A DNA stretch of 64,000 nt from Pseudovibrio axinellae (GTDB lineage Bacteria > Pseudomonadota > Alphaproteobacteria > Rhizobiales > Stappiaceae): contig NZ_FOFM01000001.1 of the NCBI RefSeq assembly GCF_900110875.1, positions 992,001 through 1,056,000 on the forward strand, written 5' to 3'. Shown in pieces: positions 516-38,465 of this stretch. Each line of letters starts with the position of its first letter. Positions within the stretch are counted from its first letter, which is position 1. The notes under the pieces were generated by a model, which had not been told where the DNA came from, ran no database searches, and was given only the letters and a program-made list of their open reading frames with translations. The position numbers and the translations under genes are program-made.

Positions 516-516
516 C

Positions 517-2558: not shown

Positions 2559-2572
2559 CACCCGTCTACAGG

Positions 2573-7633: not shown

Positions 7634-7673
7634 CACAACGCGAGGTTTTGCCAGGTCTGCTGACTTGAAAAGC

Positions 7674-22493: not shown

Positions 22494-23027
22494 ATGTTGC
22501 GATCAATCTATATTTTTGCAGCCCTTGCGGTTTCTGGGGCCGCAACAACGACTTCTGTCTGGGCCGAAGCTCCGCAATTAAAAACACCCAGTCCCGCTAT
22601 CTATCTAAGTGACAACCTTGGGGAGCCACAGGACCTTGGTTGGTGCATTGATACACTTGGCCGCGGCTATGCTGAGAACCTTCAGGCTCATTCGTGTAAA
22701 CCTCAAGGCGGAGACGTTCAGTTTGCTTATTCGCCTGAGACCAATCTGATCTCATCGGTTCCGTATGCAGGAAAATGTATGTCGCTGAGAGCTGCCCCTA
22801 CTCCAACTGCATTCAGCCTAGAGGACTGCGATCTGACGCAGGATGCTCAAAAGTTCGTTTACACCTCTACCAATGGGCAGATTTCGCCAGCAGCCGATGT
22901 AAACAAATGCGTTGCCGTTGGTGAGGAAATTCGTCAGGCCGGGCCGTTCTCATCCAGAGATTTGGATTTGGTTGACTGCAATGACGTTGCACAGGAACGT
23001 TCTGCATGGACCATACGCGACGAGTAA
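22494..23027 (+). CDS. Secreted beta-trefoil (ricin-B-like) protein
   Basis: A 177-residue exported protein behind a good GAGGTG site. The signal peptide is residues 1-24 (IFAALAVSGAATTTSVWA, cut before EAP). The mature part shows three similar units of about 45 residues, each with a Cys-containing strand pair and an aromatic Q-x-W-like end: WCIDTLG..LQAHSC..QFAY; KCMSLRA..LEDC..QKFVY; KCVAVGE..LVDC..SAWTIR. This is the ricin-type beta-trefoil layout, with six cysteines probably forming one disulfide per unit. A carbohydrate-binding or inhibitor role is possible. It precedes coxM by 235 bases with a hairpin in between, so it is probably a separate unit. Confidence 0.65.
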   Translation: MLRSIYIFAALAVSGAATTTSVWAEAPQLKTPSPAIYLSDNLGEPQDLGWCIDTLGRGYAENLQAHSCKPQGGDVQFAYSPETNLISSVPYAGKCMSLRAAPTPTAFSLEDCDLTQDAQKFVYTSTNGQISPAADVNKCVAVGEEIRQAGPFSSRDLDLVDCNDVAQERSAWTIRDE

Positions 23028-23132
23028 AGTTGCGAAAGTGGCGCAGCTGGTCGGCCAGTGTGTTTCGCAGTTCGTGCAAAAATCGCGCATCTTATGAGAA
23101 AAGCAGCGCCAGTAAGTAGATCGACGTAGATT

Positions 23133-23262: not shown

Positions 23263-24162
23263 ATGATACCAGGCGATTTTGAATTCAAGCAACCTGCATC
23301 GAAAGATGAAGCTTTGAGCATGTTGCGCGATGGAGGAGATGACGCTCGCCCGCTTTTAGGCGGACAGAGTCTTATCCCGATGATGAAACTGCGAATGGCG
23401 AGCCCCGATATACTGGTCGATTTGCGCGGACTTGATGATCTGCGGCATATTTCGATCGGCAAGAGCATCCATATCGGCGCAGCTGTAACGCAACATGAAT
23501 TAATCGGTTCAGAAGAGCTATTCAACGTTTGCCCGATCATTCGGGAAACAGCTCTTGTTATTGCTGATCCCCAGATCCGCTATAGCGGTACCATTGGCGG
23601 TAATGTTGCCAACGGAGACCCCGGCAATGACATGCCAGCGCTCATGCAATGTCTTGATGCAACGTATATTCTGGAAAGTTCTGAGGGAATACGTGAAGTT
23701 AAGGCGCGTGACTTTTATGAGGCTGCTTATTTTACAGCCTTACAAACTGGAGAAATTGTGACCGGTATTCGCTTTCCCAAGCCAGAAAGCGGTCACGGCT
23801 ATTCCTATCAAAAGCTAAAACGTAAAGTTGGAGACTACGCAACCGCTGCCGCTGCTGTCGTACTTTCTCTTTCCGGAGACAACGTTAAGAGCGCTTCCGT
23901 TGCTTTGACCAACCTCGCCGACACACCTTTGTTTGTTGAAAAAGCTGAAGATATTCTAGTCGGCTCACAACTCACTTTGAACACGATAAGGGCAACAATG
24001 GACGCTGCTGAAGCGATCATGGAGCCTGTTTCTGATGGGCGAGGAAGCCGTGAATACAGAACGAAGATGGGTGGCATCATGGTCAAACGTGCAATTGAGC
24101 AAGCCGCAATGCGCGCAGATGGGACTGCGAAAGGGGGGCTCTTCGGATGGCTAAAACGTTAA
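23263..24162 (+). CDS. coxM: Carbon monoxide dehydrogenase medium (FAD) subunit
   Basis: Flavoprotein subunit of the (LMS)2 CO dehydrogenase; it passes electrons from the iron-sulfur subunit to the respiratory chain. 299 residues. FAD-binding motifs are [16 protein letters not shown] (29-44) and [14 protein letters not shown] (110-123), and the C-terminal CO_deh_flav domain ends near residue 285. The ATG follows GAGGGAGG by about 12 bases. It overlaps coxS by 16 bases. Gene order M-S-L is that of form I cox operons. A direct repeat of TGCAAAT (23221 and 23233) lies just ahead of the ribosome site. Confidence 0.94.
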
Positions 24163-24635
24163 TCCAACTGACCGTCAACGGCGAACCGCACGAGGTTGCA
24201 GTAAACCCACGTGATTTGCTGATCCATACATTGCGGGAGACCCTGGGTCTGACTGGCGCGCACATTGGCTGCGACACCTCTCATTGTGGCGCATGCACGA
24301 TCGATATTGATGGCCAGTCCTCCAAGAGCTGCACCATGTTTGCGGTTCAGGCAAATGGGTCGAACATTACGACCATTGAAGGCATGGCTGGCGCAGATGG
24401 CACACTCCATGTGCTGCAAGAAGCCTTCAGGGAGATGCATGGTTTGCAGTGTGGATTTTGTACCCCGGGTATGATTATGCGTGCGCACCGACTGTTGGAA
24501 GAAAACCCAACACCGACAGAAGAAGAAATCCGCATCGGGATCTCTGGCAACCTGTGTCGGTGCACGGGCTACCAAAACATTGTCAAAGCGATCCAACACG
24601 CGAGTGAAACGCTAACCAGCAATGTGGAGGCTTAA
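24147..24635 (+). CDS. coxS: Carbon monoxide dehydrogenase small (2Fe-2S) subunit
   Basis: Carries two [2Fe-2S] clusters between the molybdenum site and FAD. 162 residues. All eight ligands are seen: Cys42, 47, 50 and 62 in the N-terminal ferredoxin-like domain ([16 protein letters not shown]), and Cys102, 105, 137 and 139 in the helical domain ([16 protein letters not shown]). Numbering matches the well-studied Oligotropha subunit closely. Starts inside the end of coxM and stops two bases before coxL, so all three are translated together. Confidence 0.96.
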
Positions 24636-24637
24636 AC

Positions 24638-27079
24638 ATGGCAGATACTATTAGTGAACCAAGCCAGAGCGAAACCTCCGCAGAACGGTCCCAAAAACTG
24701 GAGGGCATTGGCTGCAAAAGAAAACGCGTTGAAGACATCCGGTTCACTCAAGGTCACGGAAATTACGTTGACGATGTGAAGCTGCCGGGCATGCTCTTTG
24801 GCGATTTTGCTAGAAGCCCATACGCACATGCCAGAATTAAGCACATCAACAAGGAAAGTGCACTCAAAGTGCCAGGTGTTCTTGCGGTGCTTACAGCCGA
24901 AGATCTAATTCCTCTTAATCTGCATTATATGCCCACTTTGGCGGGCGATGTGCAGGCTGTTCTGGCGCACGAGAAAGTCCTTTTTCAAAATCAGGAAGTC
25001 GCGTTCATCGTTGCGCGAGATCGATACGCAGCCGCTGATGGCGTTGAAGCCCTTGAGGTTGAGTACGAAGAGCTTGAACCTCTTTTAAACGCGCTCAAAG
25101 CATTAGATGATGATGCTCCTGTTTTACGTGATGACCTTGCCGGTAAAACCGAGGGCGCTCACGGACCACGAGAGCACCATAACCATATTTTCACATGGTC
25201 CGCAGGAGATGAGGCTGCAACACAAGAGGCTTTTGATAAAGCTGATGTGGTGATTGAAGAGTACCTTGCGCATCCAAGGGTTCATCCGTGCCCACTAGAA
25301 ACATGTGGCTCCGTTGCGGATATGAATCCGATCACTGGTCAGCTCACCCTATGGGGAACTTTTCAGGCCCCTCATGTGGTTCGCACCGTTGCCGCACTCA
25401 TCACCAATATACCAGAACACAAAATACGGGTGATCTCACCGGATATCGGCGGAGGCTTTGGCAACAAGGTTGGCGTCTATCCCGGATATGTCATGTCCGT
25501 CGTTGCCAGTATTGTACTGAAAAAGCCGGTTAAGTGGATTGAAGACCGGATGGAAAACCTTTCCACCACGGCCTTTGCTCGCGATTACCACATAACGGCA
25601 GAGCTTGCGGCGACGAAAGAAGGCAAGGTCATTGGCATGCGCAGCCATGTATTTGCTGACCATGGTGCATTTGATGCCTGCGCGGATCCAAGCAAATACC
25701 CTGCTGGAATGTACCATATCTGTACTGGGTCCTACGACATCCCGACCGCATTTTGTTCGGTCAAAGGCGTGTACACGAACAAAGCACCCGGTGGCGTGTC
25801 TTACAGGTGCTCTTTCCGCGTAACAGAAGCCGTTTACACAATTGAACGGGCAATGGATCTTCTGGCTCAAAAGCTGGACATGGACCCAGCCGAATTACGC
25901 CAGAAAAACCTGATCCAGCCAGAGCAGTTTCCCTACACTTCCGCCTTCGGCTGGGAATACGATAGCGGCGACTATCCAACTGCCATGGCAAAAACACTGG
26001 AAGCGGTTGACTACAAGAAGTTACGACAACAACAAGCGCAGATGGTCGAAGATTTCAAGGCAGGGACATCCCGCGAGATCATGGGTGTCGGCCTTTCCTT
26101 CTTTACGGAGGTTGTGGGAGCTGGCCCCTCCAAGAATTGCGATATCCTCGGCATTAACATGTTCGACAGTTGCGAAATCAGGGTCCACCCAACGGGAGCA
26201 GCAATTGCACGCCTTGGTGTTAAAAGCCAGGGTCAGGGGCATGAGACCACATTTGCGCAAATTCTTGCCAGTGAAACTGGGTTGCCAGCTGACATGATCA
26301 CCATTGAGGAAGGTGATACAGACACCGCGCCTTATGGCCTCGGGACCTACGGCTCACGCTCTACGCCTGTTGCAGGGGCTGCCGCAGCAAGGGCTGGTCG
26401 CAAAATCAAACACAAGGCACAGCTCATTGCCTCTCACTTACTGGAGGTCCATCACGATGACCTTGAGTGGGATGTTGACGGGTTTGCCATCAAAGGGATG
26501 CCGGACAAGCGCAGATCCATGAAGGAGATCGCCTGGGCTGCCTACAACAATCTTCCTAAGGGTATGGAACCTGGACTTGAAGCGGTTGATTATTACGATC
26601 CGCCAAACTTCACATTCCCCTATGGGGCCTATCTTTGTGTTCTTCGCATTGATGTTGATACGGGTGTTTATAGTGTTGATCGGTTCTACGCGCTGGATGA
26701 TTGCGGCACCCGGATTAATCCGATGATCATTGAGGGCCAAATCCACGGCGGACTCACAGAAGCCTTCGCGGTTGCAATGGGCCAGTTGATCGACTTTGAT
26801 GAAACCGGGAACATACTTGGCGCAAGCTTGATGGACTTTTTTCTGCCAACTGCGGTGGAAACACCCAAGTGGGAAACCGATCATACAGAAGTCCCGAGCC
26901 CTCATCATCCGATTGGAGCCAAAGGTGTTGGCGAAAGCCCGCATGTAGGAGGCGTTCCAGCATTCTCTAATGCAGTGAATGATGCATTCAGAGCCTTTGG
27001 AGGTGTGCATACACATATGCCCCACACACACTCCAACATCTGGAACTATGCTCGCTCTCTGGGAATGATTGATAGCTAG
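24638..27079 (+). CDS. coxL: Carbon monoxide dehydrogenase large (Mo-Cu) subunit, form I
   Basis: Catalytic subunit that oxidises CO to CO2 at a Mo-S-Cu centre bound to molybdopterin cytosine dinucleotide. 813 residues. The active-site loop is VSYRCSFR with Cys391, the Cu ligand; form I enzymes normally read AYRCSFR, while form II enzymes read AYRGAGR, so this is form I with Ser in place of Ala. Also seen: IGGGFGNKVGVYPGYV, SQGQGHETTFAQILASETG, and the base Glu766 in GVGESPHVGGVP. The position offsets (+3 at both residues from Cys388/Glu763 of Oligotropha) support the alignment. A strong terminator follows within 15 bases of the stop. Confidence 0.96.
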   Translation: MADTISEPSQSETSAERSQKLEGIGCKRKRVEDIRFTQGHGNYVDDVKLPGMLFGDFARSPYAHARIKHINKESALKVPGVLAVLTAEDLIPLNLHYMPTLAGDVQAVLAHEKVLFQNQEVAFIVARDRYAAADGVEALEVEYEELEPLLNALKALDDDAPVLRDDLAGKTEGAHGPREHHNHIFTWSAGDEAATQEAFDKADVVIEEYLAHPRVHPCPLETCGSVADMNPITGQLTLWGTFQAPHVVRTVAALITNIPEHKIRVISPDIGGGFGNKVGVYPGYVMSVVASIVLKKPVKWIEDRMENLSTTAFARDYHITAELAATKEGKVIGMRSHVFADHGAFDACADPSKYPAGMYHICTGSYDIPTAFCSVKGVYTNKAPGGVSYRCSFRVTEAVYTIERAMDLLAQKLDMDPAELRQKNLIQPEQFPYTSAFGWEYDSGDYPTAMAKTLEAVDYKKLRQQQAQMVEDFKAGTSREIMGVGLSFFTEVVGAGPSKNCDILGINMFDSCEIRVHPTGAAIARLGVKSQGQGHETTFAQILASETGLPADMITIEEGDTDTAPYGLGTYGSRSTPVAGAAAARAGRKIKHKAQLIASHLLEVHHDDLEWDVDGFAIKGMPDKRRSMKEIAWAAYNNLPKGMEPGLEAVDYYDPPNFTFPYGAYLCVLRIDVDTGVYSVDRFYALDDCGTRINPMIIEGQIHGGLTEAFAVAMGQLIDFDETGNILGASLMDFFLPTAVETPKWETDHTEVPSPHHPIGAKGVGESPHVGGVPAFSNAVNDAFRAFGGVHTHMPHTHSNIWNYARSLGMIDS

Positions 27080-27091
27080 TATGAAGATTGC

Positions 27092-27120
27092 AGAGGCCAG
27101 TGATCTGGCCTCTCTTTTTC
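27092..27120 (+). terminator. Intrinsic terminator/attenuator between coxL and coxD
   Basis: Perfect 9-base stem AGAGGCCAG (27092-27100) / CTGGCCTCT (27105-27113) with TGAT loop, followed by CTTTTTC. It starts 13 bases after the coxL stop. It overlaps the longest possible coxD frame and argues for a coxD start at 27147. Partial readthrough would lower expression of the maturation genes relative to coxMSL. Confidence 0.85.
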
Positions 27121-27146
27121 GCAGCTATCCCATTTGGAACACTCTG

Positions 27147-28019
27147 ATGTCTATTTCCTTGAACTATCAGAAATTGCTCGCAGAGGCCGGTTACATTGCC
27201 GGTAAGCGCTTGTCCCTTGCCATCTCGATGGCAGAAACACTGGAGCGGCCACTTCTTTTGGAAGGAGAGGCAGGAGCTGGTAAAACATTTGTTGCCCAAT
27301 CTCTGGCGAAAGCTCTGGGCCGTGACCTTATCAGGTTGCAGTGCTACGAAGGCTTGGATGCCCAGCAGTCGATATATGAATGGAACTATCAACGCCAAAT
27401 GCTAGCGATTGCGTTGGCAGGCAAACAAAACAATTCGCTTGAAGACGCGGATCTGTTTTCCTCTGACAACCTCATCCGGCGGCCCCTTCTTGACTCAATA
27501 AGCCGCCAGCAGGCCCCTGTCCTGCTCATTGATGAAGTTGATCGGGCTGACGAGGAATTTGAAGCATTCCTTTTGGAGATTCTGTCAGAGTATCAGGTTA
27601 CTATTCCTGAACTCGGCGCTATTCAGGCTGTCTCAAAGCCGCTTGTAATCATCACATCAAACGGGGTGAGAGACATTTCAGATGCGCTTCGGCGTCGCTG
27701 TCTGTTTCAGTATGTGGAGTATCCAGACTACGCTACAGAACTACGCATTATTCAAGTGCATTTGCCGCAATGCAGTCTCAAACTGGCCAGTTCTGTTGCA
27801 GCCTTTGTTGCCCAGCTCCGCAAGGAGGACCTGAACAAGAATCCGGGAGTTGCAGAAACGCTGGACTGGGCAGCCGCGCTTATGGGGTTACAAATCACAG
27901 ATGTCGCAGAAAGCCTCGAACAAGCCTATGACGCTTTGTTTTGCCTCTTGAAAACCAAAGAGGACCAAGACCAAATCCCGTTTTCTGTGTTTGAGAGATT
28001 AGTGGCTAGGTCGATATGA
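27147..28019 (+). CDS. coxD: CoxD, AAA+ ATPase for CO dehydrogenase maturation
   Basis: MoxR-type AAA+ ATPase required in Oligotropha for inserting sulfur and copper into the active site. From ATG 27147 it has 290 residues; the frame stays open back to TTG 27069 with an ATG at 27081, but the terminator stem occupies that leader, so the later start is preferred. Walker A is GEAGAGKT (40-47), Walker B LLIDEVDRADEEFEAF, followed by sensor ITSNGVRDISDALRRRCLF. The stop overlaps coxE by ATGA. Confidence 0.92.
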   Translation: MSISLNYQKLLAEAGYIAGKRLSLAISMAETLERPLLLEGEAGAGKTFVAQSLAKALGRDLIRLQCYEGLDAQQSIYEWNYQRQMLAIALAGKQNNSLEDADLFSSDNLIRRPLLDSISRQQAPVLLIDEVDRADEEFEAFLLEILSEYQVTIPELGAIQAVSKPLVIITSNGVRDISDALRRRCLFQYVEYPDYATELRIIQVHLPQCSLKLASSVAAFVAQLRKEDLNKNPGVAETLDWAAALMGLQITDVAESLEQAYDALFCLLKTKEDQDQIPFSVFERLVARSI

Positions 28020-29233
28020 CAGAGCACAGCACACCGCAAAGCCCACCATCAGTATCAACAGCAGAGCGGATTATCCAGTTCTCACGCCTTCTTCGCGACA
28101 ATGCGTTCCACGTCACGATTGCAGATACAGAGCAGGCCTTACGCATTTTTGCAAATGATCCAGCAACTTTGAAGAAGCACAATTTCTTTCAGATTTTGCA
28201 GATCCTGTTTTGTAAAAAGCACGCTGATCTGGAGCAGTTTCGTTATATCTTTGATGCGTTTTGGCAGGGGAAGGCCAAACATACCAAAACGATTTACAAG
28301 GAGTACAGCCTTGCCGCTCAAGCAGTTGTAAATCGCAACCAGTCCTCGCAAGAGGTTGCTGGGCCACAGAGCGGTATGGCAAGCTATTTCGACTGGCGTA
28401 AGGCTCAAGACAGCGCAGATACTGCATCTGATGAGGGGGAAGACTCCTCGCTTAAAATGTGCGGAGCAAGCGACGTGCCCAATGCTGCCAAAACTGATTT
28501 CGGCACCATTCAGGACCCTGAACAAGCGGAGGCCCTCTTACAGCTCGCGGCCAAGTTAGGAAAGCAACTGCATTACCTGCATAGTCGCAGAAACAAGGCC
28601 TCTCTTCGAGGGAGGAGAATTGATCTGCGGCGCACAATGAGAAAGTCGCTTGCCACTCAAGGCTTGCCAACAAACATTGCACGGCGGCAGCGTAAGAAAC
28701 CACCTTTACAGCTTCTCTTGTTTGTTGATGTGTCAGGATCAATGGAAGCGTACTCGATTTTTTTTGCGCATTTCATGATGGCGCTAGTGCACGAGAACCG
28801 GCACGCAGAGGCATTCTTTTTCAATACGCGTCTTTTGCATATCTCACCGAGCATTCGCCAAATGAAGACTGACGAAATGGTCGATAAATTCAGTCTGCTG
28901 GGACAAGATTGGTCAGGGGGCACTCGCATTGGAGATGTGCTGTCTAGTTTCAATAATGGGCACCGCGCAACTGCAAAGAGACGGCAAACACTTTGTCTCT
29001 TGATGAGTGATGGATATGACGCGGGAGATCAGGACCAGCTGGCAGGCCAGCTGAAGGTGCTGAAGAGAAGCTGCCGAAAGCTCATCTGGCTTAATCCTTT
29101 GCTGGGCCGCGCGGCCTTTGTGCCAACAGCTGCTGGCGCTCGTTTGCTTCAACAGCATGCCGACATGGCTTTGCCAGTACATAACTTGAAGTCTTTGCAA
29201 GACGTGGAAAAGGTGTTGATCCATGAACCCTAG
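28016..29233 (+). CDS. coxE: CoxE, von Willebrand A domain maturation protein
   Basis: Partner of the MoxR-type ATPase CoxD; such ATPase/VWA pairs act as metal chelatase-like machines, and here as maturation factors for CO dehydrogenase. 405 residues. The N-terminal half is helical with the family's FARILRDNGF-like FSRLLRDNAFHVTIADTEQAL. The C-terminal VWA domain has the metal-ion-dependent adhesion site LLFVDVSGSM (Asp238) and GTRIGDVLSSFN. Translationally coupled to coxD at ATGA and overlaps coxF by 11 bases. Confidence 0.92.
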   Translation: MTEHSTPQSPPSVSTAERIIQFSRLLRDNAFHVTIADTEQALRIFANDPATLKKHNFFQILQILFCKKHADLEQFRYIFDAFWQGKAKHTKTIYKEYSLAAQAVVNRNQSSQEVAGPQSGMASYFDWRKAQDSADTASDEGEDSSLKMCGASDVPNAAKTDFGTIQDPEQAEALLQLAAKLGKQLHYLHSRRNKASLRGRRIDLRRTMRKSLATQGLPTNIARRQRKKPPLQLLLFVDVSGSMEAYSIFFAHFMMALVHENRHAEAFFFNTRLLHISPSIRQMKTDEMVDKFSLLGQDWSGGTRIGDVLSSFNNGHRATAKRRQTLCLLMSDGYDAGDQDQLAGQLKVLKRSCRKLIWLNPLLGRAAFVPTAAGARLLQQHADMALPVHNLKSLQDVEKVLIHEP

Positions 29234-29999
29234 CTCGGCCACTATTGCACTTTCACGGCCCCACCAAGTTGAGACGGACGAAAGTGAATTCGCTCATACA
29301 CAACAGGTCTATGCCCGCGTAACAGTTATTCGAAGAATAGGAACAACCAGCTCACGAGTCGGGGACCGGTTTTTGGTAACTGCTGCGGGCGAGCTTAGGG
29401 GTTTTTCTGGCGGGGGCTGCGTGCGCTCAGCGATCAAGCGCGTTGCAGCAAAAGCCATTGAGACAGGTCAGTCCCAAATTCTGCATGTTGTTCCCAAAAC
29501 CAAGGCTGATTTACCTGCGGAAGAGCGTGCCGAGCGAGCGATCAGCAATTGCCCGAGTCAGGGAGAAATGGAGCTTTTTGTTGAGCCGATTTTTCCAAAA
29601 CCCTGCCTAGCGATATTCGGTGATACATATGTCGCCGGATCAATCAAACCGCTTGCTGAATTTGCTGGCTGGCAGATTGTAGAGCTGCAAAATGAACCGG
29701 CGCATGAAGACCTGCCAGACACTGATTTTGCTGTTGTGGCAACAATGGGAAATGGAGATAAGGCGGCTCTTAAATCTTGTTTTGCAAAGGGCTACAAGCA
29801 CGTCTTATTTGTGGCCAGCACCAAGAAGGTCATAAGCCTAAAACAAAGTCTGCAAAGCGAAGTCCCGGTTGAGGCTTATGATAGCTTGATCTCCCCGGCT
29901 GGTTTGAACATTGGCGCAAAGACGCCCGAAGAAATAGCAATCTCAATAGTGGCTGAACTTATCTCGTTGCGCCAAGACAGCGAAGGACAGAGCTGCTGA
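29223..29999 (+). CDS. coxF: CoxF, XdhC-family maturation protein
   Basis: XdhC/CoxF-type chaperone that handles the molybdenum cofactor before insertion. 258 residues. The N-terminal XdhC domain shows RIGTTSSRVGDRFLVTAAG and the GFSGGGCV motif; the C-terminal Rossmann-like domain starts with CLAIFGDTYVAGSIKPLAEF and ends SPAGLNIGAKTPEEIAISIV. It overlaps coxE at its start and shares one base with the nucleotidyltransferase gene that follows (TGATG). Placement inside the cox run matches known clusters. Confidence 0.9.
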   Translation: MNPSSATIALSRPHQVETDESEFAHTQQVYARVTVIRRIGTTSSRVGDRFLVTAAGELRGFSGGGCVRSAIKRVAAKAIETGQSQILHVVPKTKADLPAEERAERAISNCPSQGEMELFVEPIFPKPCLAIFGDTYVAGSIKPLAEFAGWQIVELQNEPAHEDLPDTDFAVVATMGNGDKAALKSCFAKGYKHVLFVASTKKVISLKQSLQSEVPVEAYDSLISPAGLNIGAKTPEEIAISIVAELISLRQDSEGQSC

Positions 30000-30616
30000 T
30001 GAATACGCTTGCAGATTTTGAGGTCGTGCTCGCCGCTGCGGGTCTTTCCCGGCGAATGGGGGCAGTAAACAAGCTTTTGCTGCGTATAGACGATGAACCT
30101 CTCATCCGCAAAGCAGCGCGCCTTTACAGCAGCTTGGGTATGCGCGTGATCGTTGTGACCGGCCATGAAGCAGACAAGACGGAGAGCGCCTTAGATGGGG
30201 TTCCTGTCACAACAGTCTTCAACCCCCACTATATGGAGGGGCAGCGGACTTCCATTCAAGTTGGCTTGCAACATGCATCATTAGATCGAAAAGGACTGGT
30301 GATTGCCCTTGCAGACCAGCCAGAACTCACAAGCCAAGACATTTCGGCCCTTTGCAATGCCCATCAGACCAGCCGAGCTGATAAAATTCTGGTTCCGTAT
30401 TTCAAAGGGCAGCGTGGCAACCCCATCGTCTTTCCATGCTCAATTGCACGCAGGCTCATGCATAGTGGTCAAATACCCGGATGCCGGCGATTTATTGACG
30501 AAAATCCAGCCTTGGTTCGTCGCTTTAAAGCGCCAAACCATCACTTCACCTCAGACATAGACTGCCCTGCTGATCTTGGGCGCTTGCAGTCTACAAATCT
30601 CATAATTAAGGAATAA
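29999..30616 (+). CDS. MobA/MocA-like molybdenum cofactor nucleotidyltransferase
   Basis: 205-residue nucleotidyltransferase. The N-terminal signature VLAAAGLSRRMGAVNKLLLRI is typical of MocA-type enzymes that add CMP to Mo-molybdopterin. ALADQPELTSQDISAL and GNPIVFPCSIARRL are the metal-binding and product-binding parts. CO dehydrogenase requires the cytosine-dinucleotide form of the cofactor, so a dedicated CTP:molybdopterin cytidylyltransferase here makes sense. Specificity for CTP over GTP is inferred from family and context. It lies between coxF and coxG in the same transcription unit. Confidence 0.85.
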   Translation: MNTLADFEVVLAAAGLSRRMGAVNKLLLRIDDEPLIRKAARLYSSLGMRVIVVTGHEADKTESALDGVPVTTVFNPHYMEGQRTSIQVGLQHASLDRKGLVIALADQPELTSQDISALCNAHQTSRADKILVPYFKGQRGNPIVFPCSIARRLMHSGQIPGCRRFIDENPALVRRFKAPNHHFTSDIDCPADLGRLQSTNLIIKE

Positions 30617-30620
30617 GCCA

Positions 30621-31190
30621 ATGGAAATTTCCGGTCAAAGCCTGATTGAAGCCGATATCAATACTGTATGGGCTGGCCTGAACGACCCTGAGGTTTTACA
30701 GGCATCTATTCCTGGATGCGAGAGTCTTGAGGCAACAGGTGAAAACCAGTTTAAGGCTACTGTTTCTATCAAAATTGGCCCGGTCAAAGCTCGTTTCCAA
30801 GGAGAGGTGACACTCAAGGACCTCAACCCACCCAACGGATATGTAATTGTTGGCTCCGGCTCAGCAGGGCCGATGGGAGCTGCAAAAGGAAACGCTGAGG
30901 TTACGCTCTCCAGAGAAAGCCAAGGCACGCGCCTAGATTATACCGTGAATGCAGATTTAAGCGGAAAAATTGCTCAATTAGGCGGGCGCTTGATCCAAAG
31001 CACAGCAGGCGTTCTTGCAAAGCAATTTTTTAAAAACTTCTCAACTCAGATTGAAAAGCCCGCGCTTACAACGCCCGCATCTAACCTCTCTCAATCAACC
31101 AACACTGTGACGGGCACTTCCAATATCTGGATATATATCGGCATCGGGGCTGTGCTACTGGGCATCATTGCATATGTCGTCACTGCGTGA
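30621..31190 (+). CDS. coxG: CoxG, SRPBCC-domain protein with C-terminal membrane anchor
   Basis: 189 residues. The SRPBCC fold of the CoxG family occupies about 1-145 (IEADINTVWAGLNDPEVLQA, SIPGCESLEATGENQFKATV, GSGSAGPMGAAKGNAEVTL). The family SIPGCE-type motif is intact. A Ser/Thr-rich linker leads to one membrane helix near the end (IWIYIGIGAVLLGIIAYVV). CoxG is thought to tether CO dehydrogenase to the cytoplasmic membrane near the quinone pool. Five bases separate it from the nucleotidyltransferase gene, and GGAA precedes the ATG. Confidence 0.9.
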   Translation: MEISGQSLIEADINTVWAGLNDPEVLQASIPGCESLEATGENQFKATVSIKIGPVKARFQGEVTLKDLNPPNGYVIVGSGSAGPMGAAKGNAEVTLSRESQGTRLDYTVNADLSGKIAQLGGRLIQSTAGVLAKQFFKNFSTQIEKPALTTPASNLSQSTNTVTGTSNIWIYIGIGAVLLGIIAYVVTA

Positions 31191-31197
31191 TGTGAAC

Positions 31198-31503
31198 ATG
31201 CATCCTATGCAGTTTCTCAGCTTCAATCGAAATGCCCTCCGTCTCTTGAGGGGGCCTTTCAAGAAACCAGTGATCTGGATTCTTGTTCTGGCAATCCCGC
31301 TCATCTCCCCAGCCCACTCTATCGGCTGGGGACCGAGCGGCGACCAGTGGATGCTTATCTGTTCTCCCTCTGGGAATTATTGGGTCCACCTGGAAACGGG
31401 CGCGCGAAAAAAATCTGATGAGCCTACAGACAAAAAACATAACACCCCATGCCACAGCTTGGTTAACCGGCGACCTACCACGCCGGAGAGAAAATTACCG
31501 TAA
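31198..31503 (+). CDS. Small membrane protein, possibly DUF2946-like
   Basis: 101 residues starting seven bases after coxG. One hydrophobic segment (VIWILVLAIPLISPAHSIG) is followed by a soluble part with QWMLICSPSGNYWVHLETG and a later PCHSL. A Cys near a strand and a Cys-His near the end recall DUF2946 proteins, some of which are linked to copper or haem handling; the match is by eye and weak. If real, its place in a copper-molybdenum enzyme operon is suggestive. The start is uncertain (an earlier in-frame start overlaps coxG). Confidence 0.5.
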   Translation: MHPMQFLSFNRNALRLLRGPFKKPVIWILVLAIPLISPAHSIGWGPSGDQWMLICSPSGNYWVHLETGARKKSDEPTDKKHNTPCHSLVNRRPTTPERKLP

Positions 31504-31827
31504 AGAGAAGAATAAACCTGCCAGATCTTCCAAAGGTGAAATTGTTTAAAGCCTAGTTTTTCAAACGGGGGCAGATGACATTTATGGTAGTGGACGCACT
31601 TTCTCGAGTTATCTGACCAACTGGATCAAAGTACACTGGAACTAACTTTAGCTAGCAAAGAAAAATAAACGGGAAATACGTTTCATGACACCAGTTGCAG
31701 TCCAGCCTTACCTCGTATCAACTAAAACATAAACAACCTATACTTTTACAGAGGTTTGTCTTAGCCTCAAGATCATAAAATTGGCCATTGGATTTCGAAT
31801 TAGTTTTTCAGAAAGACACTATGTATA
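31504..31827. other. Intergenic region before the MHYT/LytTR gene
   Basis: About 320 bases, AT-rich in the last half. Probably holds a separate promoter for the gene at 31828. I found no convincing direct-repeat LytTR target or hairpin. Confidence 0.4.
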
Positions 31828-32982
31828 ATGCTAACCTATACTTATAATTTACCTCTGGTGGCTGCGTCTGTCTTGGTTGCGATCCTGGCTGCATTTTCAG
31901 GCATGGCACTTACCAACGGCCTTTCACGACTACCCTCTACGAAGCGAAAACTGCTCATTGCAATGGCGGCCTGCATCATCGGTGGCGGTATCTGGTCCAT
32001 GCACTTCGTCGCTCTGCTTGCGCTCAATCTTCCAGTATCAGTCTCCTATGATCTCATCTGGACTATCGGGTCTGTACTGGTCGAAATTCTTATGAGCGGG
32101 ACTGCGTTGCTCATCTTACATTTTGGCAAAAGAAACTGGGTCAACATGGGCTTGGCAGGTGCAATCTTGGGCTACGGGGTTGTTACAATGCACTTTGTTG
32201 GCATGTTTAGCATAAGAGGCTGTCTTCCTGTTTACGGAGCTGGCGCTAAAATCCTGCCAATTCTGGTGGGGCCTGCCACAGGTATTCTTGCTGTATGGGC
32301 CGCTTACAGCAACCGCACCAAAATGAATATTCTTCTTGGCTCAATTCTCTTTGGTCTATCAGTCTCCGTCATACACTACGTAACTATGTATTGGACCGGG
32401 TTCGCAATTTTACCTGCACAGATGAGCATCGACTACTCACTGGATGATAGTACTCTTGCTTTGTGGGTTTTGTTTTCAGCTTTCGGTATTTGCGCCTTGT
32501 TCTTATTTACCTCCGCGACATTTCTTGAACCCAAAGCCATGCCCGAAACAAAAGAGATTGACGAACAGCCAGATCGAGAGAGCCAAATCGAGGCTCATGA
32601 GCCAGCCCCTAGCTCACATCATGCTGAGGAGGCTCCTTCCAGCATTCCCAGCGAAATTCGTATCCCCTATGAAAAAGACAACTCTCTGCGCTTTTTGCAT
32701 AGCAATGACGTCGCTGTCATTCAGGCTGAAGGGCACTACAGCATCCTTTATACGACAAACGAAACGCTCTTTTGCCCATGGTCTATCTCAAATGCGGCAG
32801 AGCAAATGCCAGATAACTTCATTCGCACGCACAGATCGTATATCGTCAACCTTGACCATGTATCTGGCTTTGCCAGAAACAAAGACAACGGAAAATGCAC
32901 TTTCGATGCACTAGCAAACCTCTCAAATGTCCCCATCAGCCGATCTCGCATCGATACGGTTAAAAATGCATTGGGGTTATAG
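31828..32982 (+). CDS. CoxC/CoxH-like MHYT membrane sensor with LytTR DNA-binding domain
   Basis: 384-residue membrane-bound regulator. The N-terminal MHYT domain spans about seven helices (1-230) with the motifs GIWSMHFV, VVTMHFVGM and VIHYVTMY, whose Met/His residues are proposed to bind copper and sense diatomic gases. A hydrophilic linker (about 240-285) leads to a LytTR domain (about 290-380: VIQAEGHYSILYTTNE, FIRTHRSYIVNLDHVSGF, VPISRSRIDTVKNALG). CoxC and CoxH of Oligotropha have exactly this architecture, so it probably regulates the cox genes in response to CO. Which of the two is the ortholog cannot be told. Confidence 0.9.
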   Translation: MLTYTYNLPLVAASVLVAILAAFSGMALTNGLSRLPSTKRKLLIAMAACIIGGGIWSMHFVALLALNLPVSVSYDLIWTIGSVLVEILMSGTALLILHFGKRNWVNMGLAGAILGYGVVTMHFVGMFSIRGCLPVYGAGAKILPILVGPATGILAVWAAYSNRTKMNILLGSILFGLSVSVIHYVTMYWTGFAILPAQMSIDYSLDDSTLALWVLFSAFGICALFLFTSATFLEPKAMPETKEIDEQPDRESQIEAHEPAPSSHHAEEAPSSIPSEIRIPYEKDNSLRFLHSNDVAVIQAEGHYSILYTTNETLFCPWSISNAAEQMPDNFIRTHRSYIVNLDHVSGFARNKDNGKCTFDALANLSNVPISRSRIDTVKNALGL

Positions 32983-33166: not shown

Positions 33167-33868
33167 CTAAAAGGAAGATGTATAATGCCGACGACGCATA
33201 AGAGTGTTTGAAACAACCAGTAAATGCATGCGCATAACACTGGCAGCTGCTTCACTGTTTCTGGCAGCAACATTGTTCATTAAATCTCTATGTTGGAGCC
33301 CAAGTTGTTCAATCGTACTCCTTGAGTAAGTAATCTTGCGTTGCTGCATCCAAGAGGCCTGCTTTCGCACTTCTCTAATTTCGTTATAGATATTGAGAAA
33401 GAGCCGATTATGGGCCATTTCAGCAAGTCTGTAATGGAATATCTCATCGGCACTTTCGTAGACATCGGTGTCGCTGGCGTCCAAAGTTGCCTGCATGAGC
33501 TGACGCAACCGGTTGAGTTCTTCAAAGGTCGCACGTTCTGCTGCAAGCGCTGCAAGTGCTGGTTCAACTTCCAAGCGTACTTCCATTAACTCCCTTGGGG
33601 TAATACGACTAGCCAGCACACGAATTCGGCCTGCATCAGCTGCAGGTGGGGGCGCTACAAATGTTCCTTGCCCACGCCGACGAAAAACAAGACCAGCCTG
33701 CTCTAACTCTTTGAGAATGTGCCGTACGCGAACTCGGCTAATACCGAGTTTAGAAGCTAATGCCCTCTCTGGAAGTAACCTGCCGTTAGAGATAAACGCA
33801 CAGTCATTTTCTCTGTCTTTAATTGCATCTAGCAACGCTTGTTCCGGAGGCTTACCACTCAACACCAT
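33167..33868 (-). CDS. FadR-type GntR regulator (FCD domain)
   Basis: Regulator of about 233 residues (ATG 33868; a longer frame from 33898 would overlap the upstream gene). Winged helix at about 8-80: LLPERALASKLGISRVRVRH then ELEQAGLVFRRRGQGTFV. The FCD ligand domain at about 90-220 has the metal-binding-type pattern VRLEVEPALAALAAERA, DEIFHYRLAEMAHNRLFLN and LQHRDLMNNVAARN. Last gene of the peptide-transport operon, so it probably senses a product of that pathway and represses the operon. Confidence 0.85.
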   Translation of the reverse strand: MVLSGKPPEQALLDAIKDRENDCAFISNGRLLPERALASKLGISRVRVRHILKELEQAGLVFRRRGQGTFVAPPPAADAGRIRVLASRITPRELMEVRLEVEPALAALAAERATFEELNRLRQLMQATLDASDTDVYESADEIFHYRLAEMAHNRLFLNIYNEIREVRKQASWMQQRKITYSRSTIEQLGLQHRDLMNNVAARNSEAAASVMRMHLLVVSNTLMRRRHYTSSF

Positions 33869-33875
33869 CTTGCTG

Positions 33876-34709
33876 CTATGTTCCCAGTAAGTCTGCAAGC
33901 ATCCGCACAGAGGTTACAGCCAAGAAGATCCCAAAAACATTACGCAGGCGGTTTCTAGGAATACTATGTGCAATCTTCACGCCCACACGTGCAAACGAAG
34001 TGCTCATTGGGATTATGATGCCTGCCGCAAGCAAATTTACATAGCCAAGGGAGAACGGCGGAAGTCCCTCCTGCCCCAATCCGCTTAGCGCATAGATAAT
34101 TGCGCTTGGAAAGCCGATAATGAACCCAATTGCAGCAGAGGAACCGACAGCCCTGCGAATATCATAGCCAAGGAAGTTCAAAATCGGCACGCAAACTGTG
34201 CCTCCGCCAATACCCATCATCGCGGAGACCGTGCCAGCAAAGACTCCTAGCGCCGCCCACACCGGCTTTGCGAAATTGCGGGGTTCATTCGTTTCTTTTG
34301 CTTTGCGCGCGATCATCTCAATCGAAACAACCGCTGCAACAATTGCGAAAATGGCTATCAGAACATAACCGGACACGTAGCTGCCAAGCAGTGAACCCAA
34401 AATCACACCGATTAAGATCGCCGGGGCCCACAGTTTAAGAAGTTCGATATCAATGACGCCGCGTTTGTAATGCCCCCAACTGGAGGAAAGAGATGTAAAA
34501 ACTATTGTTAGCAAAGACGTTGCAACAGCTATCTGCATCGCTAAACCAGCACCAATACCTGCAACTTGAGTGAGCGCTATGTACAAGGCAGGTACGATAA
34601 CTATACCCCCACCCACACCAAGCAGCCCAGCTAAGATACCCCCCAACACTCCCGCAGCAACAGATATTGATGCCATCGTGAGTACGCCGGTTAGATCGAA
34701 GTATTCCAT
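33876..34709 (-). CDS. TauE/SafE-family membrane exporter
   Basis: 277-residue protein with about eight membrane helices in two related halves, the TauE/SafE arrangement (GGILAGLLGVGGGIVIVPALY in the first half, SAMMGIGGGTVCVPILNF in the second). GAAGGGAA precedes the ATG. Family members export sulfite, sulfoacetate or related anions made during organosulfur breakdown. Here it follows gamma-glutamyltransferase, which suggests removal of a sulfur anion from glutathione or cysteinyl peptide degradation; this is inference. Confidence 0.87.
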   Translation of the reverse strand: MEYFDLTGVLTMASISVAAGVLGGILAGLLGVGGGIVIVPALYIALTQVAGIGAGLAMQIAVATSLLTIVFTSLSSSWGHYKRGVIDIELLKLWAPAILIGVILGSLLGSYVSGYVLIAIFAIVAAVVSIEMIARKAKETNEPRNFAKPVWAALGVFAGTVSAMMGIGGGTVCVPILNFLGYDIRRAVGSSAAIGFIIGFPSAIIYALSGLGQEGLPPFSLGYVNLLAAGIIIPMSTSFARVGVKIAHSIPRNRLRNVFGIFLAVTSVRMLADLLGT

Positions 34710-34767
34710 TCAATTCCCTTCTCTATTGCAAAGCCTGAAGAGTTTGTAGGTTGATTACATCACCGCT

Positions 34768-36558
34768 CTACCTGCCGACAGCATAGGCTTGCATAAGGCG
34801 AGGCGTTGCAGCGGCTTGTAATGCGCCAGAGGGGGTCCGCATCGCGGCAGTTAACCTGCCAACCGACCAGGATTCAGCAACGACCACCTTATGTCCTCTC
34901 GCTCTTAACCCTTCGATGACCGCCTCCCCAACCTCAGGTTCGACGACAATCTCGCCCACTCTTGTTTCTCGCGGATAAAAGGAACTTTGAAAATGAGTGG
35001 TATGGAACAAGGGAGAATCCATTCCCTCTTGTAGATTCAAACCATGATGCACAAAACGCAAAAACCAGATCAATTGCCATTGATCCTGCTGGTCTCCGCC
35101 CGGAGTACCAAAAACGAGCCTGGTGCCATCTTTTTCTGCAAAGCTTGGTGTTAGCGTTGTTCGCGGACGTTTGCCCGGAGCAAGTGAGTTGGGCATGTTT
35201 TCTTCCAACCAGAACATTTGCGCACGCGAGTTCAATGGGAAGCCTAAGCCAGGGATAACAGGCGAGCTTTGCAACCACCCTCCTGAGGGAGTTGCCGAAA
35301 CCATGTTGCCCCATTTATCGATGACGTCCAGATGGACCGTATCTCCACGCTTTTCGGTCAAATGGGCCATTGTGGGTTCACCAGCACTCACGCCTCTGGC
35401 TGCGCCGAAGTCTCTTTCAGCTCGGTCGATGTATGCATCCGCTAAGTGCTCAAACCCAATGATCCGGCCCGGTCTTTGCTCCAGGGATGCGTTTTCGCCG
35501 ATCAATTGGCACCTTTGCGCGGCATATGCATCCGATAGTAACTGTTCGAGAGGCACCTCACAGAAAGCGGGGTCTCCATAGTAGGTCTCGCGGTCCGCAA
35601 AGGCGAGCTTCATCGCCTCAATCACCGTATGGATGAACTCCTCACCGTTAGGGTCCATTTTACTAAGGTCGATTTTTTTCAGGATCGACAAAGCCTGAAG
35701 CATGACAGGCCCTTGGCCCCAAGGCTGTGTTTTATGAACTGTCCAGCCATGATACTCAAAACTGACTGTATCTTCGATCGTTGCGCTCCAGTCAGCTAGA
35801 TCAGAGCGAGACAGGAGTGCTTTATGTTTCTTCTCTGAGACATCCATGACCGAGGCGTCACAAAGATAGTCACAGATGCTGTCTGCTACAAAACCTGATT
35901 TCCATATTTCACGCGCGGCAGAGATCTGTCCTTTGCGGTCTTCGCTCTTGTTTTCCGCTTCCTGCACGATACGCTCGTAGGTGCTGGCAAGGCCTGGGTT
36001 CTTGAAGCTTGAATTTGGTTCTGGAACACTACCCTGTGGCATCCACACAGCTGCAGAACTCGGCCATTCGTCCTTAAAGAAGTTTGCTAGGTCGCCTATT
36101 GTGTGGGAGACACGCGGCAAAACAGGGTGCCCCTCTCTTGCATAAAAGATAGCCGGCTCAAATACATCTCGAAGAGACATTGTCCCGTAATCTTCTAGCA
36201 TTAACATCCAGCCGTCGAACGCACCCGGAACCACTGTCGCAAGGAGCCCTGACCCAGGAATCAGGCTTAAGCCTTGTTCTTGTAAATTTTCGATAGTTGC
36301 TGCAGCAGGTGCAACACCTTGAGCGCACAAAACCTCCGGCCTTCCCTTAGAGGCTTCGTAGAGAATTGCGGGCACTTCGCCAGCTGGCCCGTTTAGATGT
36401 GGCTCAACGACTTGAAGGACAAGGCCAGCTGCAACCGATGCGTCGAACGCATTGCCGCCTTTTTCTAAAATTCCAAACCCAACAGCAGAAGCAATCCAGT
36501 GTGTGGATGTCACGACACCGAAAGTGCCACGGATCTCAGGACGCGTTGTAAATTCCAT
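34768..36558 (-). CDS. Gamma-glutamyltransferase family protein
   Basis: 596-residue N-terminal-nucleophile hydrolase precursor. The autoprocessing/catalytic Thr407 lies in GDTVHLDVIDKWGNMVSATP, followed by GWLQSSPVIPG and LAPGKRPRTTLTPSFAEKDG, all as in GGT. No signal peptide is visible (it begins MEFTTRPEIRGTFG), so it is likely cytoplasmic, unlike E. coli GGT. It cleaves gamma-glutamyl bonds, for instance in glutathione or gamma-glutamyl amides. Its position directly behind a peptide ABC transporter points to an import-then-cleave pathway. Confidence 0.9.
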   Translation of the reverse strand: MEFTTRPEIRGTFGVVTSTHWIASAVGFGILEKGGNAFDASVAAGLVLQVVEPHLNGPAGEVPAILYEASKGRPEVLCAQGVAPAAATIENLQEQGLSLIPGSGLLATVVPGAFDGWMLMLEDYGTMSLRDVFEPAIFYAREGHPVLPRVSHTIGDLANFFKDEWPSSAAVWMPQGSVPEPNSSFKNPGLASTYERIVQEAENKSEDRKGQISAAREIWKSGFVADSICDYLCDASVMDVSEKKHKALLSRSDLADWSATIEDTVSFEYHGWTVHKTQPWGQGPVMLQALSILKKIDLSKMDPNGEEFIHTVIEAMKLAFADRETYYGDPAFCEVPLEQLLSDAYAAQRCQLIGENASLEQRPGRIIGFEHLADAYIDRAERDFGAARGVSAGEPTMAHLTEKRGDTVHLDVIDKWGNMVSATPSGGWLQSSPVIPGLGFPLNSRAQMFWLEENMPNSLAPGKRPRTTLTPSFAEKDGTRLVFGTPGGDQQDQWQLIWFLRFVHHGLNLQEGMDSPLFHTTHFQSSFYPRETRVGEIVVEPEVGEAVIEGLRARGHKVVVAESWSVGRLTAAMRTPSGALQAAATPRLMQAYAVGR

Positions 36559-36569
36559 TTTTATTCACT

Positions 36570-37454
36570 TCATTTTTCACGAGGGTCGAGCGCATCGCGC
36601 AAACCATCACCCAATAAATTAAATCCAAGAACGACAAGAAAGATTGCTATCCCCGGCCACATCGCCATCCACGGTGCCTGGTGCAGGTAGTTCTTTGCAA
36701 TGTTGAGCATTTGCCCCCAGCTAGGGTCCGGTGCCTGTTGCCCAAGTCCCAAAAAACTAAGTGATGCTTCAGCTATGATCGCAGTTGCAACCGAAAGTGT
36801 TCCCTGGACCAGAACTGGGGGGAGTACATTGGGAAAGATGTACCTACGCAGGATTTTGAATGTGGGAAGCCCGACAGCTCTGGCACTCTCAACGTAGTCT
36901 TCTGCTTTGACAGATAACACTTGTCCGCGGGTCAAACGGATGAAGATTGGCGTTGTCGATATCCCGATTGCGATCATAGCATTCGTTAGGCTAGGCCCCA
37001 AAAACGCTGCCAAAGCAATGGCAAGCACAAGAAACGGGGCTGCAAGCAAAGCTTCTGTACATCTGGATATTACGGCATCAACCCAACCCGAAAAATACCC
37101 GGCCAGTATTCCCAGAGGAACGCCCAAACCAATCGCAATTGCAACAGATACAACACCCGCTAACAATGAGGCTTGAGCACCCCAGATCATCCGGGACAAT
37201 ACATCCCGGCCAATTTCATCAGTCCCAAAGGGGTGAGCAAGTGACGGCGCTTTTCGTACCGCCATCCAGTCGGTTGCCGCAGGATCGTCGATTGGCAGAA
37301 TTGGTGCGAACAACGCAACCACAACAAAGAAGAGCGCAAGCCCGCCACCGACCATGGCGCTACGATGCGTTCGAAATTTTTTCCATACTCGGTTCTCGCG
37401 CTTGGCTACGAGTATGGGATCGGGTACAGACACATTTTCTGAAGCATGTGTCAT
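36570..37454 (-). CDS. Peptide ABC transporter permease, DppC/OppC-type
   Basis: 294-residue permease with N-terminal OppC_N segment (RTHRSAMVGGGLALFFVVVA) and five further spans. The loop that contacts the ATPases is ESARAVGLPTFKILRRYIFP. ILPIDDP and HPFGTDEIGRDVLSRMIWG are typical of the DppC family. It overlaps the DppB-type gene by ATGA and lies 11 bases before gamma-glutamyltransferase. Confidence 0.92.
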   Translation of the reverse strand: MTHASENVSVPDPILVAKRENRVWKKFRTHRSAMVGGGLALFFVVVALFAPILPIDDPAATDWMAVRKAPSLAHPFGTDEIGRDVLSRMIWGAQASLLAGVVSVAIAIGLGVPLGILAGYFSGWVDAVISRCTEALLAAPFLVLAIALAAFLGPSLTNAMIAIGISTTPIFIRLTRGQVLSVKAEDYVESARAVGLPTFKILRRYIFPNVLPPVLVQGTLSVATAIIAEASLSFLGLGQQAPDPSWGQMLNIAKNYLHQAPWMAMWPGIAIFLVVLGFNLLGDGLRDALDPREK

Positions 37455-38398
37455 GCGAGATTCCTGAGCTTGGGGTTTAAGAGGACATATGCCACATCCG
37501 CAATCAAGTTCATCAAAATGAAGCCAACAGCTGTTACGAGAACAACGCCTTGCACAACAGCGTAGTCACGGTTGAACACGGCATCTACAATCAGTTTTCC
37601 AAATCCTGGAATTGTAAAAATTTGCTCAGTTAAAACAGCTCCCGCTATGAGTTCGCCAAACAGCAACGCAGTTAAAGTTACTATTGGCGTCGCAGCATTT
37701 CGAAATGCATGTTTGAGAATAACTGTTCGCTCTTGGAGCCCTTTTGCTCGCGCTGTTCGAACATAGTCTGACTTTAGTACATCCAGCATAGCTGAGCGCG
37801 TGTGGCGCATTAAAGTCGCTGCCAATGCCGTTCCAAGAACAAAAGCAGGCATAATCATCACACTCATGGAGCGCAGAGGATCCTCGAAAATAGACACAAA
37901 CCCTGAGGCTGGCAAAAGCTGCCACTTTACCGAAATTAGCAGGATCAACATGATGCCGAGCCAGAAGTTTGGTATGGACAAACCTGAAAGCGCAATAGCA
38001 TTTGCGCAATAATCAATGAAGGTTCCCTTTTTAACAGCAGATAGAATACCAGCTGGAATTCCAATAAGGAGTGCAATAATCATTGCCATGACTGCAAGCT
38101 GAAACGTAACTGGAAGCTTCTCTAATATAAGATCAAGTACCGGCTGGTTTGTTCTCAAAGATATTCCAAGATCTCCACGCAAAGCGTTGCCTATCCAGTT
38201 TAGATATTGAATAGGAATAGGATCGTTCAGGCGGTATTTTTCGCGCAAGTATTCCAGAACCTGAGGATCTCGCTCTTCGCCCGCCATTGCTAAAACAGGG
38301 TCGCCCGGAAGTAATTTCTGCAACGTAAATACGAAAATTGAGATCAAAATAATTGTCGGGATCGCAATCACCAGACGACGCAGAACGAAATTAAGCAT
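37451..38398 (-). CDS. Peptide ABC transporter permease, DppB/OppB-type
   Basis: 315-residue partner permease of the OppC-type protein. N-terminal segment LVIAIPTIILISIFVFTLQKLLPGDP followed by YRLNDPIPIQYLNWI is diagnostic of DppB. The ATPase-contact loop is DYVRTARAKGLQERTVILKHAFRNA. A stem-loop lies between this gene and the binding-protein gene upstream. Confidence 0.92.
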   Translation of the reverse strand: MLNFVLRRLVIAIPTIILISIFVFTLQKLLPGDPVLAMAGEERDPQVLEYLREKYRLNDPIPIQYLNWIGNALRGDLGISLRTNQPVLDLILEKLPVTFQLAVMAMIIALLIGIPAGILSAVKKGTFIDYCANAIALSGLSIPNFWLGIMLILLISVKWQLLPASGFVSIFEDPLRSMSVMIMPAFVLGTALAATLMRHTRSAMLDVLKSDYVRTARAKGLQERTVILKHAFRNAATPIVTLTALLFGELIAGAVLTEQIFTIPGFGKLIVDAVFNRDYAVVQGVVLVTAVGFILMNLIADVAYVLLNPKLRNLA

Positions 38399-38428
38399 CT
38401 CTTAGACTTTCAAGATGTTGGAAAGCAC

Positions 38429-38454
38429 CTGCGCGGCAGATAACCACCGCGCAG
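38429..38454 (-). other. Intercistronic stem-loop after the binding-protein gene
   Basis: CTGCGCGG and CCGCGCAG form an 8-base GC-rich stem with a 10-base loop just past the binding-protein stop and without a U-run. Such structures behind periplasmic binding-protein genes protect the upstream mRNA and give an excess of binding protein. Confidence 0.6.
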
Positions 38455-38465
38455 AGCTATCTCAT

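Follow-up and report, generated by a model that had tools for sequence, protein, structure and literature searches.

Does the alphaproteobacterium Pseudovibrio axinellae carry a working form I carbon monoxide (CO) dehydrogenase, and if so, how is it switched and where did it come from? We addressed this in a stretch of 64,000 nucleotides with a guanine-plus-cytosine content of 51.1% (contig NZ_FOFM01000001.1, positions 992,001 to 1,056,000; hereafter the window, numbered from its first letter). Nine genes, all on the forward strand at 23263-32982, run in the order coxM-S-L-D-E-F-mocA-like-G and end with a regulator gene of the MHYT-LytTR type. This is how the initial annotation had read the locus, and place, order, strand and expected domains were all confirmed. 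It had also called the cluster complete, which holds for M-S-L and for D-E-F-G, but coxB, coxH, coxI and coxK of Afipia (Oligotropha) carboxidovorans OM5 (PMC11347149) are missing from the run. The cluster is a real, intact and ordinary form I set. With high confidence, we explain the whole as a working form I aerobic molybdenum-copper CO dehydrogenase cluster, probably switched by CoxC, most likely supplementing the energy supply of its host and probably acquired horizontally.

The large subunit carries the class assignment. CoxL, which has the domains Ald_Xan_dh_C, MoCoBD_1 and MoCoBD_2, scored 1407.2 bits against TIGR02416 (cut-off 991.15), and its best relatives of solved structure were the OM5 enzyme (1n5w, 1zxi), followed by 1ffu and 8uem. 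The loop SYRCSFR begins at residue 388, so the copper-binding cysteine is Cys391, and the glutamate is residue 766, exactly where both had been placed before. We then examined the CoxL tree of 102 rows, from which the duplicates L004, L101, L094, L097, L160 and L161 were omitted; its named loci are the 80 most similar among 583 that matched, so that distant form I enzymes are under-represented. A CoxL phylogeny had been proposed as a check in the initial annotation, and the window CoxL was nested among the 99 form I rows, apart from the three form II rows (100 in the Shimodaira-Hasegawa-like approximate likelihood ratio test, SH-aLRT), and not with form II or other hydroxylases. The gene order is coxM-S-L, as in form I, whereas form II clusters are ordered S-L-M (PMC13203968). 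The genome encodes six MoCoBD_1 proteins in all, and one of the other five has the form II loop AYRGAGR (L162). With such proteins in the genome, the window enzyme could itself be of form II, or another hydroxylase of the xanthine oxidase family acting on a different substrate. Against the CSFR loop with Cys391, the TIGR02416 score, the form I clade and the M-S-L order, that explanation is extremely improbable. CoxL is identified, from its profile, loop and tree, as the subunit of a form I aerobic molybdenum-copper CO dehydrogenase.

Attention had been drawn to a Ser in the loop where form I enzymes have Ala. This is true of the window, but the residue is a known natural variant and not a rare one. 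Among the 99 form I rows, 86 carried AYRCSFR and 13 SYRCSFR, the latter in the window, in L007 and in 11 members of a single Rhodobacterales clade, a distribution for which two changes on the tree suffice; two of ten further clusters with coxL (L191 and L193) carried it as well. A 2026 survey lists SYRCSFR among six motifs in 707 form I CoxL sequences and accepts it as genuine (PMC13203968), and the first position of the loop is described as tolerating substitutions (PMC13240472). Because of these counts, the two changes and the published motif list, we regard the Ala-to-Ser change as ordinary and rule it out as a special feature.

The remaining parts of the enzyme set were in order. CoxS has exactly eight Cys, as had been noted, at residues 42, 47, 50, 62, 102, 105, 137 and 139, enough for two [2Fe-2S] clusters. 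The TTG start listed for coxD overlaps coxL, and a later start is possible. Form I clusters differ in their content: CoxG, whose C-terminus is hydrophobic by eye, was recognised in 50 of the 78 clusters where coxL is followed by at least 6 kb. In the same set the order F-mocA-G occurred in seven clusters, the window included, and a mocA-like gene lay at another position in three; L191 and L193, outside this count, also have F-mocA-G. The mocA-like protein scored 125.5 bits against TIGR03310, below a strict cut-off of 186.45 that was passed only once in 14 control genomes, and we use the name MocA-like because of this score. Its product is probably a molybdopterin cytidylyltransferase. A cofactor role for such a gene within the cluster would be sensible and has published precedent: mocA lies within the cox clusters of two other CO oxidisers, where the same role was suggested (PMC11771112), and adjoins xdhC genes in other operons (PMC2997495). 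The cluster had been credited with a dedicated cofactor enzyme of its own. A mocA-like gene does lie inside the run, but "dedicated" is the weaker part of that claim, since one of the four other TIGR03310 matches in the genome scores higher at 146.9 bits, also below the cut-off.

We further studied the regulator, for which the two predicted domains, MHYT and LytTR, were both found (PF03707, PF04397). It is the only match in its own genome (E 0.001). Its MHYT-like motifs read MHF, MHF and IHY, and the absence of Met from the third is shared with the four Rhodobacterales-type rows of the alignment (L049, L050, L078 and L123). In the regulator tree it grouped with the upstream CoxC proteins of other alphaproteobacteria, in a branch resembling those of Rhodobacterales and Rhodospirillales. 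The position of its gene is another matter. In 82 clusters whose coxM is preceded by 2.5 kb or more, coxC lay upstream of coxM in 74 (in one of them, OM5, on both sides), was absent from the fetched stretch in seven, and lay only downstream in the window alone. Omitted from this count and from the operator counts below were L004, L087-L103, L118, L126, L137, L177 and L195-L197, which are short, repeated or window-derived; coxC is upstream in L195-L197. A coxC downstream of coxG is an unusual place and is new here. The downstream position might suggest CoxH, an identity that was not supported: the protein groups with upstream CoxC, and the pieces of OM5 CoxH branch elsewhere, although these are long-branched and the argument is correspondingly weak. 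The second MHYT gene of OM5 (L122, 16434-17634, NC_015689.1) is annotated as two overlapping open reading frames (ORFs), an apparent frameshift of either the record or the gene itself.

OM5 CoxC is described as a membrane-bound LytTR repressor whose release by CO depends on copper; at PcoxB, its operator consists of three repeats, TTNNNGCN, all of which were needed for repression, and RcoM1 binds triplets of TTCNNGCA (PMC11347149). Upstream of coxM in many clusters, we found tandem TTCGTG motifs at steps of 19-21 bp. At least one copy lay within 300 bp in 73 of 89 loci and at least two in 48 (six of the 89 are form II loci, and the window is counted twice, the second time as L137), compared with a chance expectation of 6.8% of 300-bp stretches. 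A matrix of 99 sites, built with the window excluded and having the consensus CGCANTTCGTGC at steps of about 20 bp, scored the strong repeat of the window, CGCAGTTCGTGC, at 23.2 bits. This repeat ranked top among all 18-nt sites on both strands of the 64 kb, the next best reaching 13.3 bits, and no other of 544 stretches reached its score. Within it, TTCGTGCA, starting at 23071, matches the RcoM1 consensus, and the degenerate second repeat stands in register with the 19-21 bp spacing of other clusters. The genome-wide search for the core listed this same place (G000:C53:1015066-1015077). These observations indicate that the repeat at 23066-23077 is probably a CoxC operator, as predicted from its sequence.

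The link between site and regulator was examined across clusters. A site of at least 12 bits accompanied an upstream coxC in 73 of 78 clusters, most of which had also trained the matrix, compared with 50 of 6124 background stretches. In the unseen test, a site lay between coxC and coxM in all seven newly fetched clusters with coxM (L187-L189 and L191-L194); their CoxL are at most 91% identical to earlier ones, and they were chosen for CoxC, so that what they test is the site and not whether CoxC is present. The site also occurs in L195-L197, whose genomes had been sampled before, and the stretch of L190 contains no coxM. Five clusters have coxC upstream but no site, namely L060, L020 and, forming an outlying CoxC branch, L007, L025 and L033. 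In 12 clusters no upstream coxC was found; six have the site (the window, L008, L012 and, with short upstream stretches, L026, L081 and L082) and six lack it. The site could therefore belong to another regulator, with the downstream MHYT-LytTR protein controlling something else, seeing that about 8.8 kb separate the site from the start of the regulator gene and that L008 and L012 have a site without CoxC in the stretch. The repeated pairing of site and upstream CoxC argues against this, as do the absence of the site from L007, L025 and L033 and from five of the seven clusters whose upstream sequence is available but contains no CoxC, and the match to the RcoM1/CoxC LytTR consensus. We consider a different regulator unlikely and retain CoxC as the predicted ligand of the site. 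As an observation in its own right, the regulator of L008 and L012 may lie elsewhere in their genomes.

Other searches around the run gave little. In the gap before coxC there was no good operator site (best 1.0 bits). A sigma-70 scan (3 hits versus 10.4 in shuffles) and a search for terminator-like sites (13 versus 10.8) were uninformative. In the literature, "PcoxM" occurs nowhere in the main text of PMC11347149, and "operator" does not occur in the accessible parts of two papers on RcoM and CO oxidation (PMC11771112, PMC4257681). The coxM-proximal site may be undescribed, judging from the papers listed in a search on RcoM and coxM that covered few subscription journals.

Next, we asked how the cluster is distributed. 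The form I cut-off was passed by none of 15 congeners, 14 of which gave weaker matches and one none, and all nine congener loci read (L104-L107, L110, L113-L116) have the form II loop AYRGAGR. Among genomes from the family's other genera, 11 of 21 passed it, as did 5 of 24 from other families of the order. Those 11 genomes could suggest vertical inheritance of the cluster, with losses in the other congeners. On the tree, though, a single clade of eight rows (SH-aLRT 100) takes in seven of them, six under their own rows and G035 by way of L086, which is identical; the remaining four make up two pairs elsewhere, and none joins the window CoxL, whose sister is instead the CoxL of a Neomegalonema metagenome-assembled genome (MAG), L007 (support 100, 84% identical), followed by that of Rhodomicrobium L008 (100). 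Vertical inheritance is accordingly very improbable, and the 84% identity to L007, the separate grouping of the family's form I enzymes and the absence from 15 congeners suggest that this species probably acquired the cluster horizontally. The CoxL of G035 (L094) and that of Labrenzia sp. 011 (Stappiaceae) are identical. That of L014, a MAG labelled Arenimonas, is nearly identical to those of Ciceribacter and Rhizobium, perhaps through a binning error. In our literature search, which was not exhaustive, we met no earlier report of form I in Pseudovibrio; strains FO-BEG1 and JE062 are reported to have form II genes, with CO uptake not demonstrable under the conditions applied (PMC3806328).

The flanks were compared with those of congeners. 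On the left, the seven congener pncA regions compared run parallel to the window as far as about 19.9 kb, and past that point they show no more than short scattered matches. In the congener G002, the DNA that follows pncA has a single 67-base match in this genome, and for this reason no empty insertion site can be defined. On the right, G003 alone among the congeners has a counterpart of the block at 33.2-42.1 kb, on another contig.

We further investigated whether the enzyme and its regulator share one history. Forcing the window CoxC together with that of L007 cost 56 log units and was rejected by the approximately unbiased (AU) test (p-AU 9.25e-05), so that inheritance of the regulator together with CoxL, as sister of L007 CoxC, was discarded. 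The test used 66 of 81 rows, most Bradyrhizobium rows having been dropped; the pair was chosen with the CoxL tree and an initial regulator tree already in view, and the very long branch of L007 CoxC (3.91) weakens it. Because of this rejection, CoxL and CoxC seem to have different histories, and the cluster is perhaps a mosaic; the doubt here comes from the long branches and from having a single relative at 84%, on a contig that breaks off just after coxL. Among the other genes, coxM grouped with L007 and L008 (99), coxE with L008 (98, a pairing flagged as long branches meeting), and mocA, in a tree of only 10 rows, with a mainly Rhodobacterales set including Hoeflea (95), while the trees of coxS, coxD, coxF and coxG did not resolve the placement. 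In a fuller reading, an enzyme of Neomegalonema/Rhodomicrobium type would be controlled by a CoxC and an operator from a different lineage, coxC would have shifted from the front of the run to its end, and CGCANTTCGTGC would be a general CO switch of form I clusters; we put the chances of this at even.

Taken together, a working scheme can be proposed. CoxM-S-L, by family, form the enzyme, and CoxD-E-F, probably with the MocA-like protein, would build the Cu-S-Mo cytosine-dinucleotide centre, as judged from their relatives. CoxG, described as a quinone-linked membrane protein (PMC13240472), would link the enzyme to the membrane and the quinone pool. The MHYT-LytTR protein may sense CO through its membrane domain and act on the repeat at 23066-23096, probably repressing there until CO releases it, judging from OM5 CoxC and the conserved site. 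The enzyme genes would have come from a Neomegalonema/Rhodomicrobium-like lineage and the regulator from a Rhodobacterales/Rhodospirillales-like CoxC branch. No RuBisCO large subunit (ribulose-1,5-bisphosphate carboxylase/oxygenase) was found in the genome, and for this reason the host would most likely oxidise CO as an energy supplement and not as a carbon source for autotrophic growth. CO scavenging, which the initial annotation had thought probable, is thus the likeliest interpretation.

Several points weigh against this reading. Choosing the named loci by similarity biases the sample towards the query, and the D, E, F and G trees say little because the window branches are long. The second repeat is weak and a third was not found upstream of coxM, whereas repression in OM5 needs three; the strong repeat lies 192 nt before coxM, further than in most relatives. 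At up to one mismatch the single core had 118 hits in the genome, as many as its reversed control (118), with four exact copies. Being no rarer than this control, a single core is no evidence elsewhere, and it is position and repeat that carry the signal. The cluster might also be form I yet silent or decaying in this host, given that none of the 15 congeners examined has form I, the regulator gene is oddly placed and the second repeat is degenerate. This is quite unlikely, somewhat less so than vertical inheritance: all nine frames are open, the catalytic residues and CoxS Cys are kept, and the operator core is exact. We thus keep to the working, CoxC-switched cluster.

Table 1. Features of the cox cluster and its predicted operator (window positions)
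Feature	Position	Strand	Basis
Predicted CoxC operator, strong repeat CGCAGTTCGTGC	23066..23077	+	23.2 bits, window-free matrix
Degenerate second repeat CGCATCTTATG, 20 bp after the first	23086..23096	+	2.3 bits; weak
coxM, flavin adenine dinucleotide (FAD) subunit of CO dehydrogenase	23263..24162	+	PF00941 FAD_binding_5 8e-46, PF03450 CO_deh_flav_C 7e-24
coxS, iron-sulfur subunit, eight Cys	24147..24635	+	PF01799 Fer2_2 2e-33, PF00111 Fer2 2e-6
coxL, form I molybdenum-copper subunit, SYRCSFR loop, Cys391, Glu766	24638..27079	+	TIGR02416, tree
coxD, MoxR-type AAA+ ATPase (maturation)	27069..28019	+	PF07728 AAA_5 6e-15; syntenic D in relatives
coxE, VWA protein (maturation)	28016..29233	+	PF05762 VWA_CoxE 8e-56
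coxF, XdhC-family maturation factor	29223..29999	+	PF13478 XdhC_C 1e-19, PF02625 XdhC_CoxI 1e-11
mocA-like nucleotidyltransferase	29999..30616	+	PF12804 NTP_transf_3 2e-29; TIGR03310 125.5 bits; PDB 3d5n 7e-18
coxG, SRPBCC-like	30621..31190	+	PF06240 COXG 2e-33; PDB 2pcs 4e-23; CoxG chain 8uds 9e-10
Orphan ORF, 111 aa, overlapping the coxG end, before the regulator	31168..31503	+	Without family
coxC-type regulator, MHYT + LytTR	31828..32982	+	PF03707 1e-21, PF04397 2e-17

The features are collected in Table 1. The orphan ORF has no Pfam match up to E 1 and no relative in 98 + 11 cox loci or in the 15 congeners, and may not be a gene. Immediately before the cox genes, 22494-23027 encodes a 177-aa protein with a ricin-type beta-trefoil lectin domain (PF00652) and, by eye, a signal-like start. 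Downstream, 33167-42114 holds genes for a GntR/FCD regulator, a TauE exporter, a gamma-glutamyltranspeptidase and those that follow; this is the block shared with G003.

We finally compared the cluster with known systems. The cox cluster of OM5 on pHCG3 is alike in its subunits, M-S-L-D-E-F-G order, active site and MHYT-LytTR regulators, and its CoxL is 71% identical to that of the window. It differs in having coxC upstream together with a second MHYT gene downstream, in the CoxH position, in a second XdhC gene (coxI), and in the lack of mocA between F and G. The two CoxC share their domain order and the window site fits the consensus, but the published operator lies at PcoxB and the window site at coxM, and in the window coxC is the last gene of the run. 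Form I clusters of Rhodobacterales, such as that on pSMR1-4 of Pseudosulfitobacter pseudonitzschiae, share the F-mocA-G order, SYRCSFR, a related CoxC branch and the operator; there coxC lies upstream of coxM, and CoxL, 70.5% identical, belongs to another clade. The Neomegalonema sp. MAG CC_bin1 (L007) has the nearest CoxL and shares SYRCSFR, but differs in a divergent CoxC upstream, no conserved operator and, by eye, adjoining Calvin-cycle genes. In L007, positions 2-8260 appear by eye to hold an aldolase, RuBisCO large and small subunits and CbbX before coxC-coxMSL, which suggests a CO-driven autotroph.

The form II clusters of the same genus, one of which is also present in this genome, belong to the same superfamily and have the AYRGAGR loop without Cys. 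Compared with these systems, what is new here is form I in a genus where none of the 15 congeners examined has it, a downstream coxC, a coxM-proximal repeat and the discord between enzyme and regulator. The role of form II as a "CO dehydrogenase" is an open question, and a species with both forms beside form I-negative congeners could separate the two enzymes. The predicted coxM operator offers a testable CO switch for most of the sampled alphaproteobacterial form I clusters; if true, the CGCANTTCGTGC switch would be wider than the single PcoxB operator of OM5 and kept across alphaproteobacteria. The value of this cluster lies in this predicted operator and in its place in a genus where, among the loci read, form II ruled.

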